NCBI GenBank assembly: GCA_902616645.1
Contig: CACMTO010000001.1
Span: 62,001-126,000 of the forward strand
Direction: 5' to 3'
From: an uncultured Pelagibacteraceae bacterium
GTDB taxonomy: Bacteria; Pseudomonadota; Alphaproteobacteria; Pelagibacterales; Pelagibacteraceae
DNA: 64,000 nt
Positions 6,960-47,849 of the stretch are shown here, piece by piece. The translations under genes were made by a program, and so were the position numbers. The notes beneath the pieces are model-generated. The model was not told where the DNA came from and searched no databases. It was given only the letters and a program-made list of their open reading frames with translations. How positions within the stretch are numbered: the first letter of the stretch is position 1; each line of letters starts with the position of its first letter.

Positions 6960-7754
6960 ATGATAGGATTAATTTTTGGTGATACAGATTTTCCAAATAA
7001 AATATTAGAGACAATCAAAAAAAGAAAAATAAATTATTTAATAATAGATTTATCCACATCTAAGAAATTTAAAAAAGATAGTAGATCTTATTCAGTCTCT
7101 ATGGGTCAATTTGGAAAAATAATTGATATACTTAAAGAAAATAGCTGTAAAAAGGTCTTATTTGCAGGGAAAGTAAATAAACCAAACTTTTCTAGGCTAA
7201 AGCTAGACATCAAAGGAATTTATTATATTCCAAGAATTATCAAAGCATCGAAACTTGGGGATGCTGCAATTTTGAAAGAGATAATAAAAATATTAGCTCT
7301 AAATAAGATTAAAACTGAAAATTCACTTATATTCAACCCAGAGCTTTCACTTAAAAAAGGTAATTATTCGAAATTAAAGCCTAGTAATAAAGATAAATCA
7401 GACATTAGAAAAGCTATTAAGACGCTAAATACTTTAAAACAGTATAATTATAGTCAGGGCGTAGTAGTTAGAAATAAAAAAATAGTTGCTATTGAAGGAA
7501 AAGGTGGAACCCAAAAAATGCTTCAAAAAAGTAGAAGTAAAAAATTTAGAAATCAAGGAGTTTTAGTTAAGTTTCCAAAAAGAAAACAAGATCTTAAAGT
7601 AGACTTACCCACTATTGGATTAAAAACGTTTAAACAAAGTAAGACAGCTGGATTAAAAGGCATTGTTATAAAAAGTAAACAACATGTATTTTTAGATAAA
7701 AACAAATGTATTAGCTTTGCAAATAAAAATAAGATGTTTATCTCGGTGAAATGA
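6960..7754 (+). CDS. lpxI: UDP-2,3-diacylglucosamine pyrophosphatase LpxI
   Basis: Cleaves UDP-2,3-diacylglucosamine to lipid X plus UMP. LpxI (DUF1009 family) replaces LpxH in most Alphaproteobacteria. The 264-residue protein begins MIGLIFGDTDFP, has the KKVLFAGKVNKPNF segment near residue 70 and the family signature GVLVKFPKRKQDLKVDLPTIG near 203-223 followed by AGLKGIVI. It sits between lpxA and lpxB, its normal place. Its presence matters for another gene: the LpxH-like phosphatase at 42974 is not needed for lipid A. Confidence 0.93.
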   Translation: MIGLIFGDTDFPNKILETIKKRKINYLIIDLSTSKKFKKDSRSYSVSMGQFGKIIDILKENSCKKVLFAGKVNKPNFSRLKLDIKGIYYIPRIIKASKLGDAAILKEIIKILALNKIKTENSLIFNPELSLKKGNYSKLKPSNKDKSDIRKAIKTLNTLKQYNYSQGVVVRNKKIVAIEGKGGTQKMLQKSRSKKFRNQGVLVKFPKRKQDLKVDLPTIGLKTFKQSKTAGLKGIVIKSKQHVFLDKNKCISFANKNKMFISVK

Positions 7755-41990: not shown

Positions 41991-42875
41991 TTATTTTATA
42001 AGAAAATTCACTTTTTTATTTGATAGATTTAAATGAATTTTTTTATATGAACCAAAATTATCTCCATCAATTTGAACAGGTATCAAATCATTTCCATCAA
42101 TTGTAATGTTTTGTGCATAAGTAGTAATAACATTTTTATTTTTACTTAAATCACCATTAAGAATTATTAAAAAAATTGAATATAATAAACTAATCCTAGT
42201 CAAATCTTTAAATATATAGGTGACTAATTTCTCTTCAAAAATATTTGTTTTATTTATTTTATGATGTCCAGCGTAATATTTGGTATTTGAAGATAATATC
42301 CAGTCTGCTTGATAAAATTGACCATCAAAAGTGACATTTAACTTTTTATTATTCATAAACAAGAAATATTGAAAACCTTTGATACCAAATATAATTTTAC
42401 CTAGAATCTTTTTAATTTTTGAATTAATTGAATGAACAATTTTTGCATCCCATCCTATACCAGCCATTAAAAAGAAATAATTATCGTTAATTTTTACAAG
42501 ATTAGAGGATTTATAATTATTAGAAACCAACACATTTACTATATCATCAACTTTTTTATTCATTGATAATTCAGCTTGAAGCAAATTTGCAGTGCCAGCA
42601 GGAATATAACCTATGGCAAAATCGTCTTTAAAATCAAAATTATTTTTAATTAATTCATTAATTGCAAAAGAAACTGAACCATCACCACCAGCTATTATTA
42701 GTCGATCATAATTTTTTTGATTAAAATTTTTGAAAATTTTCTTAGCTTGATTTATTGTTTTTGTTTCAAAGTAGTCTACAGAAATATTCTCTTTTAACTT
42801 AGATAAAATCCTATTTATGAATATAGATTTTCTTCCAGAGGAAGAATTCAAATTATATATCAAACAACATAACAT
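41991..42875 (-). CDS. Diacylglycerol kinase family lipid kinase (YegS/DagK-like)
   Basis: A 294-residue DAGK-catalytic-family protein with the nucleotide-binding GGDGS at 63-67, the following GYIPAGTANLLQAEL and the C-terminal PVQIDGDNFG. It probably phosphorylates diacylglycerol or a related lipid to phosphatidic acid. It is divergent from plcP, whose product would be diacylglycerol, and a Pho-box-like repeat lies in the shared 98-base gap. I infer a role in handling the diacylglycerol released in lipid remodelling; sphingosine or other lipid substrates cannot be excluded. Confidence 0.8.
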   Translation of the reverse strand: MLCCLIYNLNSSSGRKSIFINRILSKLKENISVDYFETKTINQAKKIFKNFNQKNYDRLIIAGGDGSVSFAINELIKNNFDFKDDFAIGYIPAGTANLLQAELSMNKKVDDIVNVLVSNNYKSSNLVKINDNYFFLMAGIGWDAKIVHSINSKIKKILGKIIFGIKGFQYFLFMNNKKLNVTFDGQFYQADWILSSNTKYYAGHHKINKTNIFEEKLVTYIFKDLTRISLLYSIFLIILNGDLSKNKNVITTYAQNITIDGNDLIPVQIDGDNFGSYKKIHLNLSNKKVNFLIK

Positions 42876-42894
42876 AATTAATCCTTAAAAAATT

Positions 42895-42927
42895 TTTAAC
42901 AAATTTGTAACATTCAAATGAGATAAC
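42895..42927. promoter_or_regulatory. Pho-box-like 11-base direct repeats upstream of plcP
   Basis: Two 11-base units, TTTAACAAATT and TGTAACATTCA (42895-42916), match the two first units before pstS at 17 of 22 positions. A weaker third unit follows. PhoB boxes are 11-base-spaced direct repeats of a 7-base core. A TTAGAT at 42930-42935 is placed right for a -10 hexamer. The site lies between dagK and plcP and could serve both. Confidence 0.68.
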
Positions 42928-42973
42928 AATTAGATGATTCGTGTTACAGTTGTATTAAAATATAGGTCTTTAA

Positions 42974-43786
42974 ATGCCTAATTTACTTAAATATAAAAGT
43001 ATATTTATTTCTGATGTTCATTTAGGTACCAAGGGTTGCCAGGCGAAAAAACTTTTAGAGTTTTTTAAAAACTCAAGATCCGAAAATCTTTATCTTGTAG
43101 GGGACATTATAGATATCTGGGAAATGCAAAAAAGTTTTTTTTGGCCTCAAGAACATAATGATGTAATCCAAAAAATTTTAAGAAAAGCTAGACATGGTAC
43201 CAAAGTTTTCTACATAATGGGTAATCATGACGAAATGTTAAGAAAATTTATTCCAATGCATTTTGGTGACATCCATATGGTTAATAGAGTTGTTCATGAA
43301 ACAAATGCAGGAAAAAAATATGTTGTTGTTCATGGTGATGCTTGGGATGGTGTTATGAAACATGCTAAATGGTTATCTAAACTTGGATCAATAGCCTATA
43401 ATTTACTATTAAAATTAAATTTAATAATTAATTTTTTTAGAAGATTGAGAGGAAAAGAATATTGGTCTCTTGCAAAATTTTTAAAGTATAAAGTCAAAAA
43501 TGCAGTTAAATATATTGGTGAATATGAAAAAACACTTTCAGATTATGCAAAAAGAAAAAAATTTGATGGGATTATTTGTGGCCACATCCATCATGCTGAG
43601 GATAGAGACTTTAATGGGGTCAATTATTTAAATTGTGGAGACTGGGTTGAATCTTGTACCGCATTAGCCGAAAATTATGATGGTAGTTTTGAAATATTAT
43701 ATTGGGACAAAATAAGAGAACAATATTTAGACGATAAAGAAATAATTGAACCAATTAAAACTGAAGAATTAAAAAAAGCTTCATAA
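42974..43786 (+). CDS. plcP: PlcP-like phospholipase C (LpxH-family metallophosphoesterase)
   Basis: Binuclear metallophosphoesterase with all ligands visible: Asp14/His16 (SDVHLG), Asp44 (VGDIID), Asn84/His85 (GNHDE), His120 (VHGD) and His204/His206 (CGHIHH). By family it resembles LpxH, but lipid A is already served by lpxI in this window. It stands three bases before an Agt-type glycosyltransferase, with phoR next. This is the plcP-agt pair known from Sinorhizobium and marine Alphaproteobacteria, where PlcP removes phospholipid head groups in P starvation. The Pho-box-like repeat upstream agrees. The assignment is by context and family, not by a direct match. Confidence 0.8.
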   Translation: MPNLLKYKSIFISDVHLGTKGCQAKKLLEFFKNSRSENLYLVGDIIDIWEMQKSFFWPQEHNDVIQKILRKARHGTKVFYIMGNHDEMLRKFIPMHFGDIHMVNRVVHETNAGKKYVVVHGDAWDGVMKHAKWLSKLGSIAYNLLLKLNLIINFFRRLRGKEYWSLAKFLKYKVKNAVKYIGEYEKTLSDYAKRKKFDGIICGHIHHAEDRDFNGVNYLNCGDWVESCTALAENYDGSFEILYWDKIREQYLDDKEIIEPIKTEELKKAS

Positions 43787-43789
43787 TTA

Positions 43790-44797
43790 ATGAAAATTTT
43801 AATTGCTACAGATGCATATTTTCCACAAGTAAATGGTGTCGTAAGAACCTTACATGAAACAGGCAATGTATTAAAAGAACAAGGTCATAGAATAGAATAT
43901 ATTACACCTGACTTATTTTTTACTTTTCCGATGCCGAAATATAATGAAATTAAGTTGTCTATAAATGTATGGCCAAGAGTTGGTAATTTAATAAAGAAAA
44001 TCAATCCAGATGCAATTCATATCGCTACCGAAGGCCCGATAGGCACTATGGCAAGAAGATATTGTTTAAAAAATAATCTAAAGTTTACTACGAGTTTCCA
44101 TACAAGATTTGATAAATATCTAAAACTTTACTTTCCTATTATACCAGCAAAATGGGCTGAAAAATTCTTAGCAAATTTTCATAATAAGGCTGAGAGAATT
44201 TTAGTAACTACAGAGTCTATGAGAAAAGAATTAATCGATATAGGTATAGATGACAATAAAATGATTACTTGGACTAGAGGAGGAAATCATGGAGCTTTTA
44301 AGAACCCTAAAAAAATTGATTTACCTCATAAAAGACCTATTTGGATTTATGTTGGAAGAGTTGCAGTTGAAAAAAACATAAGAGCTTTTTTAGAATGTGA
44401 TTTAGAAGGTACAAAAATAATTATAGGAAAAGGACCTGATTTAAAAAAATTGAAAAGAGAATTCCCTAAAGATATTTTTTTAGGAGAAAAAACAAATGGT
44501 GAATTAGCATCACATTTTGCATCCTCTGATGTTTTTGTTTTCCCTAGTAAAACAGATACATTTGGAATTGTAGTTACAGAAGCTTTAAATTGTGGAACAC
44601 CTGTTGCTGCGTATCCTGTTCCAGGTCCTAAAGATATATTTGAAGGATCCAAAATAAATTGTTTAGATGATGATCTTAAAGTATCAGCCCAAAAAGCTTT
44701 AAAAGTTGACAGAAATGATTGTCTTGAATTTGCAAAAAAATTCACTTGGGAAGAAACAGCAAAAATATTTTTTAACAATATTTCACCAAATCATTAG
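43790..44797 (+). CDS. agt: Agt-like GT4 glycosyltransferase for glycolipid synthesis
   Basis: GT4-family transferase (335 aa): the N-terminal TDAYFPQVNGVVRTLHE and TSFHTRFDKYLK are typical of diacylglycerol glycosyltransferases of the SqdX/Agt group. The C-terminal donor site has WIYVGRVAVEKNI, FPSKTDTFGIVVTEALNCGTPV. In the known pathway Agt adds glucose or glucuronate to the diacylglycerol left by PlcP, replacing phospholipids with P-free glycolipids. It forms a two-gene unit with plcP (three-base gap) and precedes phoR. The sugar donor cannot be told from sequence. Confidence 0.82.
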   Translation: MKILIATDAYFPQVNGVVRTLHETGNVLKEQGHRIEYITPDLFFTFPMPKYNEIKLSINVWPRVGNLIKKINPDAIHIATEGPIGTMARRYCLKNNLKFTTSFHTRFDKYLKLYFPIIPAKWAEKFLANFHNKAERILVTTESMRKELIDIGIDDNKMITWTRGGNHGAFKNPKKIDLPHKRPIWIYVGRVAVEKNIRAFLECDLEGTKIIIGKGPDLKKLKREFPKDIFLGEKTNGELASHFASSDVFVFPSKTDTFGIVVTEALNCGTPVAAYPVPGPKDIFEGSKINCLDDDLKVSAQKALKVDRNDCLEFAKKFTWEETAKIFFNNISPNH

Positions 44798-44862: not shown

Positions 44863-46008
44863 ATGGAATATTTCCTCATTCTACTTATAGTTGTAATAGT
44901 TTATCTTCTCTATTTACTTAATCAAAAAAAAAATAAATCAATAAATACCGCTACAATAGTTAATAAAAGAGAAGAAAAAACAAAAAGAGTAATTATTGAT
45001 GAGCTTGAAGATCAATTTTTTGCATTAAATAAATTTAACATAATTAAATATGCCAATCCAAGTGCATTAAAAAGATTTGGAAGTAATTTAATTGATAAAA
45101 ACATATCTTCTATAATTCGAAAACCAGAATTAATAGAAAATATTGAAAAAGCTATCGTAGAAAATAAAACAAAAAATATTGATGTTGAAATAGACCTCCC
45201 ATCATATCAATTCTATAAAATTTATATTATTCCTGGCCCAACTCATTTGTTTACTGAACCAGACTCTGTTGTGTTATTTTTAAAAGATTTTACTGAAATT
45301 ACAAAAGCACAAAAATTTAAAACTGATTTTGTAGCAAATGTAAGCCATGAATTAAGAACACCTTTAATGGCAATCAAAGGATCACTAGAAACAATTGAGG
45401 GCCCAGCGTCTGATGATGAAAAGGCTAAAAAAAAATTTATGAAAATAATGACTGATCAATCAAATAGAATGGAAAATTTAATTAATGATCTTTTAATACT
45501 CACAAGAATTGAATTAGAAGAACACATAAGGCCAAACTCTTTAGTTGATATAAATGATCTTTTCAAAACAATCATCAGTAATTTTGAGATTGTTTTAAAA
45601 AGAAAGAAATTAAATATTAATTTATCTCTCGCCAATCCAACAGTTGTTATTGGAGATGAAAAAAAATTACAAACTGTTTTTTCTAATCTTTTAGATAATG
45701 CAATTAAGTATTCAAAGGAAAATAAGTCTATTTTTATATCAAGCAAAATTAGCGATGGTAAATTGTTAGAAAAAAATTTTATGATCAGTATTAAAGACGA
45801 AGGTGTTGGCATTCCTCAAAGATATATTTCTAGAATTACAGAAAGATTTTTTAGGGTAGATCTTGAACAAAGTAACAAGGTTGGTGGAACCGGTTTAGGA
45901 TTAGCTATTGTTAAACATATAGTTACTCAACATCGTGGACACTATGAGATTCTAAGTGAGGAAAACCAAGGAACTGAAATTCAAATTTATTTACCAGCGA
46001 AAACTTAA
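44863..46008 (+). CDS. phoR: Phosphate regulon sensor histidine kinase PhoR
   Basis: Membrane kinase that controls PhoB. One N-terminal membrane helix (about 2-20) leads into a PAS-like segment (about 45-145), then HisKA with phospho-acceptor His162 in ANVSHELRTPLMAIKGS and HATPase_c with LLDNAIKYSKEN, DEGVGIP, ERFFRVD and GGTGLGLAIVKHI. Length 381 aa. It lies upstream of the pst cluster, with phoB at its far end. The gap before it (65 bases) shows only a lone GTGTAA half-site. Confidence 0.92.
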   Translation: MEYFLILLIVVIVYLLYLLNQKKNKSINTATIVNKREEKTKRVIIDELEDQFFALNKFNIIKYANPSALKRFGSNLIDKNISSIIRKPELIENIEKAIVENKTKNIDVEIDLPSYQFYKIYIIPGPTHLFTEPDSVVLFLKDFTEITKAQKFKTDFVANVSHELRTPLMAIKGSLETIEGPASDDEKAKKKFMKIMTDQSNRMENLINDLLILTRIELEEHIRPNSLVDINDLFKTIISNFEIVLKRKKLNINLSLANPTVVIGDEKKLQTVFSNLLDNAIKYSKENKSIFISSKISDGKLLEKNFMISIKDEGVGIPQRYISRITERFFRVDLEQSNKVGGTGLGLAIVKHIVTQHRGHYEILSEENQGTEIQIYLPAKT

Positions 46009-46099: not shown

Positions 46100-46708
46100 A
46101 TGGTTAAAATATTCAAAAATATTTTGATTTTTGCTTTTTTATTAAGCTCTATAACAACAAGTGTTTTTTCTAAAGATATCACAACATTATTAAGAAATCA
46201 GCAACTTACAGTTTTTGATATTGGAATTTTTAGATTAGAGGCAGATTTGAAAACTTCATATCCTTCTATTAAAGATCATTTAGAAGTTACTGAAGCTGAA
46301 TTTTATACAGACGTAGTTACCTCGTATTCTAAAAATTCAATTGATTTAATTGTTTCTGTTCCTATGAATAGAAATCTCAAGAAGGAAAATTATTTTTCAG
46401 ATTCTTTTAGATGTAGGAATATTTTTAATTCTGTAAGAGATTTTTTATTGAGGAATGAAAATTTGAGTAATTATAGATATACTATGGCTACAAGCTATTT
46501 AACCTCTATATTTTCAACCCCAAGTTCATGGCCAGACTGGAGATATGATGAAGAAATTAGAGAGGAACTAGTAAACTTAGTAAAACTAGAAATAACTTTA
46601 CGTCCAACCAAAGAACTAGCTCTTAATGAACAGGTAAACCCTGTTTCATGTATTGGTGGCTTAGAAACTGATATTGACCAAATAATTATATCAAAAAAAT
46701 ACAACTAA
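46100..46708 (+). CDS. Unknown secreted protein in the Pho locus
   Basis: I do not recognise this protein. It is 202 aa with a clear signal peptide (about 1-24, ending SVFSKD), so it is exported to the periplasm or beyond. The mature part is soluble, mixed in secondary-structure pattern, with just two cysteines (Cys105 and Cys184) that could form a disulfide, and a Trp-rich patch SSWPDWRYDEEI. It has no lipobox. Placed between phoR and pstS, with a Pho-like half-repeat TTTAACAATTC 41 bases before its ATG, it is likely to work in phosphate acquisition or in the P-starvation response. That is inference from position. Confidence 0.85.
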   Translation: MVKIFKNILIFAFLLSSITTSVFSKDITTLLRNQQLTVFDIGIFRLEADLKTSYPSIKDHLEVTEAEFYTDVVTSYSKNSIDLIVSVPMNRNLKKENYFSDSFRCRNIFNSVRDFLLRNENLSNYRYTMATSYLTSIFSTPSSWPDWRYDEEIREELVNLVKLEITLRPTKELALNEQVNPVSCIGGLETDIDQIIISKKYN

Positions 46709-46719
46709 AAAGTTACCTT

Positions 46720-46752
46720 TTTAACAAAAGTGTAACAATTCTGTAATATTAA
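46720..46752 (+). promoter_or_regulatory. Pho-box-like triple direct repeat upstream of pstS
   Basis: Three 11-base units follow without gap: TTTAACAAAAG, TGTAACAATTC, TGTAATATTAA. Each starts with the core TNTAA. This is the spacing of PhoB sites. TTATAC at 46766-46771 is a possible -10 hexamer, 13 bases on, as expected for PhoB-activated promoters that lack a -35. pstS starts 65 bases after the repeats. Confidence 0.75.
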
Positions 46753-46817: not shown

Positions 46818-47849
46818 ATGAAAAAACTAACTATAGTAATTGCTTCTTTAGTTGCACTTTCAATTGCAACTGTTGCTCAAGCAAGAGATCAAATTAAGAT
46901 AGTTGGTTCTTCTACAGTATTCCCTTATGCAACAGTTGTTGCTGAAAGATTTGGTGGTTCAGGATTTAAAACTCCTGTAATCGAGTCTACTGGTACTGGT
47001 GGTGGAGCTAAACTATTCTGTGCTGGTGTAGGTGAACAACATCCAGATATTACAAACGCATCAAGAGCTATGAAAGATAAAGAAAAAGCTCTATGTAAGA
47101 AAAATGGTGTTAATGATATCGTTGAGATCGTAATTGGTAACGATGGTATTACATTAGCTTACAGCAAAGATGCAAAACCAGTAAACTTTACTAAAGAACA
47201 ATTATATTTAGCACTTGCTGCTCATACAGTTGTTGATGGTAAATTAGTTCCAAATATTTATAAAACTTGGGACCAAATTGACCCTAGCTTACCAAAACAA
47301 AAAATTTCAGTGATGATCCCACCGGGAACATCAGGAACTAGAGATGCTTGGAATTCTTTAGTAATGAAAAAAGGTATGACTAAAGAAGCTAAAGCTCTTT
47401 ATAAAGCTGGTTTTGAAGCTGGAAATAAAAAATACAAAAAACCTCAAAAACTTTACAGAGAAGATGGTGCTGCTATTGAAGTTGGAGAAAACGATAGTTT
47501 AATCATCCAAAAGTTAACTCAAGATAAAGAAATGTTTGGTTTCTTTGGTTTCAGTTATTTCTTAGCTGCAAAAGATAAATTGCAAGCAGCAAGTATTGAT
47601 GGTGGACAACCGTCATTAAAGTCTATTCAAGACTACAGTTATGCTGTTGCTAGACCTTTATTCTTCTACGTGAAAAAAGCACACGTTGGAGTAATTCCAG
47701 GCTTACATGAGTTTGTGAAAGAATTCACAACTAAGAAAGCTATTGGAAAAGGTGGTTACTTAGCAGACATTGGTTTAGTGCCATTAGACTCTAAGTTGTA
47801 TAAAACAACTAGAACTAATGCTACGAAGCTAGTTGCTATGGGTGATTAA
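46818..47849 (+). CDS. pstS: Phosphate ABC transporter substrate-binding protein PstS
   Basis: Periplasmic high-affinity phosphate-binding protein. Signal peptide about 1-22 (ends ATVAQA), then IKIVGSSTVFPYATVVAERF and VIESTGTGGGAKLFC, the phosphate-contacting loops, SRAMKDKEK and PPGTSGTRDAW near residues 173-183. Length 343 aa. AAAGGA upstream is a fair ribosome site. A strong terminator follows, so pstS should be transcribed more than pstCAB. The three Pho-like repeats upstream predict induction by P starvation. Confidence 0.96.
   Translation: MKKLTIVIASLVALSIATVAQARDQIKIVGSSTVFPYATVVAERFGGSGFKTPVIESTGTGGGAKLFCAGVGEQHPDITNASRAMKDKEKALCKKNGVNDIVEIVIGNDGITLAYSKDAKPVNFTKEQLYLALAAHTVVDGKLVPNIYKTWDQIDPSLPKQKISVMIPPGTSGTRDAWNSLVMKKGMTKEAKALYKAGFEAGNKKYKKPQKLYREDGAAIEVGENDSLIIQKLTQDKEMFGFFGFSYFLAAKDKLQAASIDGGQPSLKSIQDYSYAVARPLFFYVKKAHVGVIPGLHEFVKEFTTKKAIGKGGYLADIGLVPLDSKLYKTTRTNATKLVAMGD

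Follow-up and report, generated by a model that had tools for sequence, protein, structure and literature searches.

A divergent lipid kinase gene accompanies plcP and agt at the phosphate locus of a SAR11 genome and elsewhere in the Alphaproteobacteria

Gene content of the locus

The window analyzed here is a 64,000-nt stretch of contig CACMTO010000001.1, from the assembly of an uncultured member of the Pelagibacteraceae (GCA_902616645.1), and our subject is the group of three lipid genes (dagK, plcP, and agt) that lies next to its phosphate-regulation genes. The source genome belongs to SAR11 (1.04 Mb in 26 contigs, 88.8% complete), and the nearest named matches to the window are assemblies of uncultured Pelagibacteraceae and Pelagibacterales. 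Reading away from dagK, which is transcribed divergently, the gene order is plcP, agt, phoR, a gene of 202 residues, pstS, pstC, pstA, pstB, phoU, and phoB. The starts of dagK and plcP diverge across 98 bp, plcP and agt are separated by 3 bp, and agt and phoR by 65 bp. PlcP-Agt remodeling in SAR11 is already in print, as are the parts and their ecology; what we add is a divergent dagK-plcP pair found class-wide, a kinase subfamily, and a promoter geometry.

A first-pass annotation of this DNA placed here a two-gene plcP-agt unit beside phoR, with a Pho-box-like operator of its own and a divergent lipid kinase. All of the parts that it named are present: the unit that it delimited runs from the start of the repeat upstream of plcP (42895) to the stop codon of agt (44797), with dagK itself falling outside this range.

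The plcP-agt unit

plcP (42974..43786, forward strand) encodes a 270-aa PlcP-type metallophosphoesterase and predicted phospholipase C (PF00149, 49.4 bits) that carries metal-site motifs of a calcineurin-like phosphoesterase (DVH, GD, GNHD, HGD, and GHIHH). On the same strand, agt (43790..44797) encodes a predicted GT4 diacylglycerol glycosyltransferase of 335 aa (PF13439/PF00534), and phoR begins at 44863, which is the two-gene arrangement that had been described. A gene for a nonphosphorus lipid is thus adjacent to plcP, and agt lies directly downstream at 45 of the 46 places in the family where plcP occurs.

PlcP is 44 to 57% identical to most of its homologues in the class, many of which carry the public label UDP-2,3-diacylglucosamine diphosphatase. 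That label, and a phosphoesterase superfamily in common, would favor reading plcP as lpxH and agt as a lipopolysaccharide glycosyltransferase, i.e., both as genes of lipid A or lipopolysaccharide synthesis. We rejected this assignment, which we regard as very improbable. LpxH models score far under their cutoffs on PlcP (TIGR01854, 40 bits versus 190; NF003743, 50 bits versus 134), and this is the sole match to an LpxH model found in the genome; PlcP reads GNHD where two aligned LpxH chains read GNRD; LpxI is encoded within the window at 6960-7754 (PF06230, 126.7 bits; PF17930, 75.8 bits); Agt has the residues of a characterized diacylglycerol glycosyltransferase, as described below; and plcP was not found in 11 of 19 members of the genus. 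The "LpxH-family" label of the first-pass annotation therefore holds at the level of the superfamily but fails for LpxH itself, and its argument that LpxI covers lipid A, freeing the phosphatase for another role, stands. By its sequence, PlcP is best read as a phosphoesterase other than LpxH, with the lipid A step supplied by LpxI.

Agt is identical to GTcp, the characterized glycosyltransferase of HTCC7211, at each of the 15 positions tested by mutation in that enzyme (PMC8231724). GTcp was shown to make glucosyl-diacylglycerol (MGlc-DAG) and glucuronosyl-diacylglycerol (GlcA-DAG) (PMC8231724), and Agt is predicted by analogy to make the same two lipids. Cleavage of phosphatidylglycerol or phosphatidylethanolamine to diacylglycerol by PlcP is likewise predicted from the literature on its orthologues (PMC4796936, PMC8231724). 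The residue matches in Agt and the low LpxH scores of PlcP agree with the proposal, also made in the first-pass annotation, that the two genes form a phospholipid-to-glycolipid unit.

The Pelagibacter phage Mosig EXVC030M (L248:1897-3732) also encodes a homologue of PlcP with 50% identity, under the label UDP-2,3-diacylglucosamine hydrolase. Its gene diverges from one for a putative phosphate transporter, and the space between them holds a Pho-box-like repeat that scores 12/14.

The plcP-linked kinase

dagK (41991..42875, reverse strand) encodes a soluble DAGK_cat/YegS-type lipid kinase of 294 aa (PF00781, 74.8 bits; cutoff, 23.6), the best PDB sequence match of which is the diacylglycerol kinase DgkB (2qv7, E = 2.4e-20). 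It shares with this Staphylococcus aureus enzyme the DAGK_cat family and the GGDG and DG motifs. Among 52 kinases linked to plcP, the motifs and residues GGDG, PxGTAN, D143, K155, Y201, and DG are kept in every one.

The linked kinases were compared with ten unlinked paralogues, hand-picked, one per genome, from ten genomes that each have a linked copy as well. In a quick tree, 17 linked kinases from SAR11, 35 from the class, and one unlinked paralogue (L221) split from the nine other unlinked paralogues on a branch with 99% support in the Shimodaira-Hasegawa-like approximate likelihood-ratio test (SH-aLRT); two of the 37 linked kinases from the class (L171 and L182) were not included in the trees. 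A more careful tree, built under a simpler model after the removal of four long rows, three of them unlinked and one linked, retains the clustering: here, the linked label needs two changes, and a grouping of all linked rows together is not rejected (approximately unbiased test, p-AU 0.16). The position of L221 inside the linked group and the two label changes rule out a strictly linked-only clade, and the plcP-linked kinases are better described as a near-exclusive subfamily.

The shared control region

The 98-bp region between dagK and plcP (42876..42973) measures 89 to 112 bp at the 17 loci where it was measured, with the start of dagK fixed by alignment. It contains a plcP-directed Pho-box-like repeat, TTTAACA-N4-TGTAACA, that matches at 14/14 positions (42895..42912, forward strand; TTTAACAAATTTGTAACA), ending 61 bp before the ATG of plcP and starting 19 bp before that of dagK. 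A second repeat, which matches at 13/14 positions and lies on the reverse strand (42942..42959), is directed toward dagK. The pstS promoter (46720..46748, forward strand) has three 11-bp steps of the repeat, 14/14 across the first two, such that a PhoB-type tandem repeat with an 11-bp period is common to the plcP and pstS promoters, as in a Pho regulon.

Across the 1.04-Mb genome, at most one mismatch being allowed, the pattern occurs four times (at plcP, at pstS, facing dagK, and once within a coding open reading frame [ORF]), and the reversed pattern, used as a control, does not occur at all. These counts rule out an operator that arose by chance and bear out the earlier recognition of a Pho-box-like operator at plcP. 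When two mismatches are allowed, the window holds 6 matches versus 2.7 expected; these extra copies mean little, since 10 of 100 shuffles also reach 6. Binding of PhoB to the repeats is putative.

The pattern was derived from the window and its relatives, and tests elsewhere are therefore fairer. Across the family, a box of at least 12/14 lies upstream of plcP at all 21 loci examined (160 bp scanned per locus), ending 61 to 74 bp before the plcP start; these loci include three that lack an adjacent dagK (L079, L080, and L081). In twelve dagK-plcP gaps, the mean score is 13.6 versus 9.4 in shuffles (six family loci, L065, L071, L072, L076, L078, and L082, were left out of this test on account of a short gap, an N, or a contig end). 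Upstream of pstS, the best scores at 15 loci, including the window, range from 10 to 14, with 13 or 14 at 11 of them. Among near relatives, 80 were fetched and 78 could be measured; every one of the 78 has a box directed toward dagK that scores 12/14 or more. These genomes are close copies of one another. At L081, where dagK is absent, a second box (13/14) faces the other divergent gene, similar by eye to the Rce1-like protease gene of L080.

Distribution of the gene group

Among 118 genomes of the family, plcP was found in 45 and dagK in 48: both occur in 41, plcP only in 4, dagK only in 7, and neither in 66, a co-occurrence with p = 7.8e-20 (kinship uncorrected). dagK is divergent from plcP at 40 of the 46 plcP places, with 98 to 130 bp between aligned ends. 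The six other places include two at contig starts (G052 and G115), one near a contig end at which the start of dagK is still recognizable with closer queries (G031), and one whose genome has dagK at the end of a different contig (G023); the remaining two (G019 and G071) are considered below. Two of the seven dagK-only genomes (G010 and G032) have fragments at contig edges. Twenty loci of the family were read in detail, chosen by us from the 46 and not mutually independent.

Closer to the window, 78 of 80 near relatives have the order dagK-plcP-agt, and in the other two plcP lies at a contig edge. Within the genus, all three genes are present in 8 of 19 genomes, and neither plcP nor dagK is present in the other 11. 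At six of these loci without the module, manC precedes phoR either directly (two loci) or via one ORF of 110 to 280 residues (four loci), and phoR is divergent in sequence (39 to 42% identity to that of the window). The 202-residue ORF of the window, which is present at many pho loci of the plcP type, was not seen at these six. Given the manC-phoR arrangement and the missing ORF, the pho locus of the genus appears to have two replacement forms.

Beyond SAR11, plcP (E ≤ 1e-20) was found in 82 of 240 sampled genomes of Alphaproteobacteria. Without the window's own genome, 81 remain, of which 37 have an upstream divergent DAGK_cat gene among the matches listed, and these represent 30 family codes; another 18 have a DAGK_cat gene elsewhere, and 26 have none among the matches listed, an upper bound, with DAGK_cat matches used down to about E = 1.6e-15. 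The matched dagK and plcP segments of this class-wide sample are 179 to 675 bp apart, a distance at which a small intervening gene is possible. At 36 of the 37 dagK-linked loci, the stretch that was fetched also includes an agt homologue (the other locus being cut by a contig end), a count of homologues within the stretch rather than of proven immediate neighbors. The sample rules out a kinase specific to SAR11, and the clustering of the subfamily and the breadth of the linkage, which spans 30 family codes, make hitchhiking of dagK at plcP unlikely.

The first-pass annotation had called for a search of this kind and had named a dagK unlinked to plcP in relatives as the outcome that would speak against its proposal. 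The linkage at 40 of 46 family loci is the opposite outcome, and together with that in 37 of 81 class genomes it makes the kinase a genuine partner of the pair. Its further suggestion, that the kinase is an addition to the known pair, does not survive: with the divergent pair in 30 family codes, the kinase is no novelty of SAR11.

Neighboring genes

phoR (44863..46008, forward strand) encodes a PhoR-like sensor kinase for which PhoR/PnpS models are top-scoring yet remain under their equivalog or subfamily cutoffs (TIGR02966, 281.8 bits; cutoff, 334), and its Pfam domains pass. pstS (46818..47849, forward strand), which heads pstSCAB-phoU-phoB, presents the same picture: TIGR02136 is the top model and falls under its cutoff (135.9 bits versus 206.6), and the Pfam domain passes (PF12849, 144 bits). 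The genes pstC, pstA, pstB, phoU, and phoB and the remaining context genes were named by reading. Between phoR and pstS, the 202-residue ORF (46100-46708) has, by eye, a signal-peptide-like start and has no matches in Pfam, NCBIfam, or PHROG.

At 9 of the 20 SAR11 loci read in detail, a pair of ORFs lies between agt and phoR. At the two loci where Pfam identity was checked (L064:5417-6981 and L077:4924-6513), the pair is convergent and consists of a GNAT protein (PF13444) and an acyltransferase, resembling OlsB and OlsA. No such pair occupies that position in the window, in which agt and phoR are 65 bp apart. This differs from HTCC7211, which reportedly synthesizes ornithine lipid (Carini et al. 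2015). Neither OlsB (PF13444) nor DgkA (PF01219) was found in the window's own genome, a provisional result given that a profile search can miss a family and that the genome is 88.8% complete; indeed, the same search missed PF12850, with which PlcP scores 38 bits directly.

Published systems

The plcP-agt genes of "Candidatus Pelagibacter" HTCC7211 have been described (PMC4796936, PMC8231724), and both SAR11 genomes have plcP followed by agt. Putative Pho boxes have been reported for plcP clusters (PMC4796936). Table 2 of Thompson et al. 2013 (PMC3686209) includes three SAR11 genes that occur only in HTCC7211 and are over-represented at the Bermuda Atlantic Time-series Study (BATS) site, for a diacylglycerol kinase, a metallophosphoesterase, and a group 1 glycosyltransferase; the kinase gene co-varies with the other two in metagenomes, and judging by their names, these are probably the same genes as those of the window. 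The phosphate islands of HIMB59 hold a DGK, an LpxH-named gene, and an RfaG glycosyltransferase with phoR-phoB-pst, and they vary with phosphate concentration (PMC10734472); the likeness is one of gene names only, and the authors of that study assign LpxH to lipid A metabolism and see no direct phosphorus function in DGK. In Pseudomonas putida BIRD-1, DagK is enriched with PlcP upon depletion of phosphate and is called PHO-dependent in the discussion of that study (PMC5082522); a divergent dagK-plcP pair is not mentioned in its available portion. At the single Pseudomonas plcP locus that we viewed, the upstream gene is not dagK but one for a helix-turn-helix protein.

A diacylglycerol kinase has thus been reported beside, or co-enriched with, like-named genes in three sources (PMC3686209, PMC10734472, and PMC5082522), which also counts against presenting the kinase as an addition to the known pair. 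We found no published description of the divergent pair itself (subscription papers and supplements lay outside the search).

Interpretation

We read the locus as a phosphate-starvation membrane-remodeling cassette in which DagK serves as a co-induced valve, and we consider this reading somewhat more likely than not. Its bases are the identities of the genes, the conservation of their arrangement, and the repeats together with their rarity in the genome. Under phosphate limitation, PhoB would act on the repeat at 42895-42912 and turn on plcP-agt; PlcP would split phospholipids into diacylglycerol and a phospho-headgroup; Agt would convert the diacylglycerol to its glucosyl and glucuronosyl forms; and DagK would phosphorylate the same diacylglycerol to phosphatidic acid. 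Diacylglycerol, as the product of PlcP, is the simplest candidate for the substrate of DagK. Because dagK has a facing Pho box of its own, its co-induction is the likelier state in this genome, and DagK probably belongs to the same Pho program as plcP-agt. As a valve, it may prevent diacylglycerol from building up and feed acyl chains back to essential phospholipids, with no separate recovery switch.

The first-pass annotation instead proposed a reversible switch between remodeling and recovery. In reciprocal form, starvation would bring PhoB to the plcP box, where it would activate plcP-agt and block dagK, and the return of phosphate would allow dagK to be expressed and the leftover diacylglycerol to become phospholipid. 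The geometry suits such blocking, in that the plcP box starts just ahead of dagK, by 1 to 27 bp, at each of the 17 loci measured, 13 of which have the plcP box alone, with no dagK-directed box of at least 12/14. However, a switch needs opposite control of the two genes, and dagK has its own 13/14 box here, so the proposal is not supported as stated; a box facing dagK likewise occurs at three other loci of the family and in each of the 78 near relatives that could be measured, and the enrichment of DagK alongside PlcP in P. putida (PMC5082522) points the same way. Reciprocal control may operate in relatives where the plcP box stands alone, and for the locus described here we consider it rather unlikely.

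Alternatively, DagK could act on some other lipid (e.g., a lysolipid, a glycolipid, or a long-chain base) and merely share a phosphate-controlled neighborhood. DgkB has an Asp network, D68-D97-D124: D68 is kept in 52/52 linked kinases, but D97 and D124, which set the S. aureus enzyme apart from this subfamily, are each kept in 0/52 (equivalents exist in five and eight, respectively, of the ten unlinked paralogues), and the subfamily has its own invariant D143 and Y201. Since these equivalents are absent and DagK scores under the cutoff of the NCBIfam YegS/Rv2252/BmrU model (TIGR00147, 99.2 bits versus 118.65), diacylglycerol can be called no more than a candidate substrate. Moreover, dagK persists at the pho locus of six genomes in which plcP was not found, and DagK is therefore not strictly dependent on PlcP. 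Five of them, from genus g5 (L231-L235; 70 to 94% complete), have dagK and phoR in divergent orientation, lack a neighboring agt, and show no repeat scoring 12/14 or more in 220 bp; in the sixth (G032), a contig-edge dagK is divergent from pstS, which a 14/14 box faces. The strong co-occurrence of dagK with plcP, the class-wide divergent pairing, and the best PDB match to a diacylglycerol kinase argue instead for the PlcP product, and we judge another substrate to be quite improbable.

These properties of the kinase and the six genomes weigh against the valve as well, as do several further observations. G019 and G071 have plcP without a detected dagK, and an Rce1-like protease gene takes its place in G071. 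Only 4 of 17 family loci, including the window, have a box that faces dagK with a score of 12/14 or better. For the classical alphaproteobacterial Pho box (CTGTCAT-N4-CTGTCAT), the mean best score in 35 class-wide dagK-plcP gaps is 9.89 versus 8.56 in shuffles, an enrichment that we count as weak because the reversed control pattern is likewise raised (9.03 versus 8.38). Finally, the Pseudomonas DagK is matched to that of the window by name only, and it is not named among the proteins listed as absent from a phoBR mutant (PMC5082522).

We also advance, tentatively, a broader scheme that we consider rather unlikely. The linked DagK would be a distinct, ancestral subfamily of the Alphaproteobacteria dedicated to remodeling, and SAR11 would have two promoter wirings that set the diacylglycerol branch by geometry: at most of the examined loci, a single box that turns plcP on and leaves dagK blocked and, in the clade of the window, facing and overlapping boxes from which both genes are induced and compete.

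Biological significance

Remodeling by PlcP and Agt lowers the phosphorus need of very abundant ocean bacteria. Should the kinase prove to be a third component dedicated to this process, the fate of diacylglycerol would be set at a defined branch point whose enzyme can be named and whose promoter is short and shared. The divergent dagK-plcP pair is also present in culturable Alphaproteobacteria, in which the idea of a third component is testable. By extension, lipid remodeling may also be the role of the "LpxH plus DGK" genes that other marine bacteria carry in their phosphate islands.

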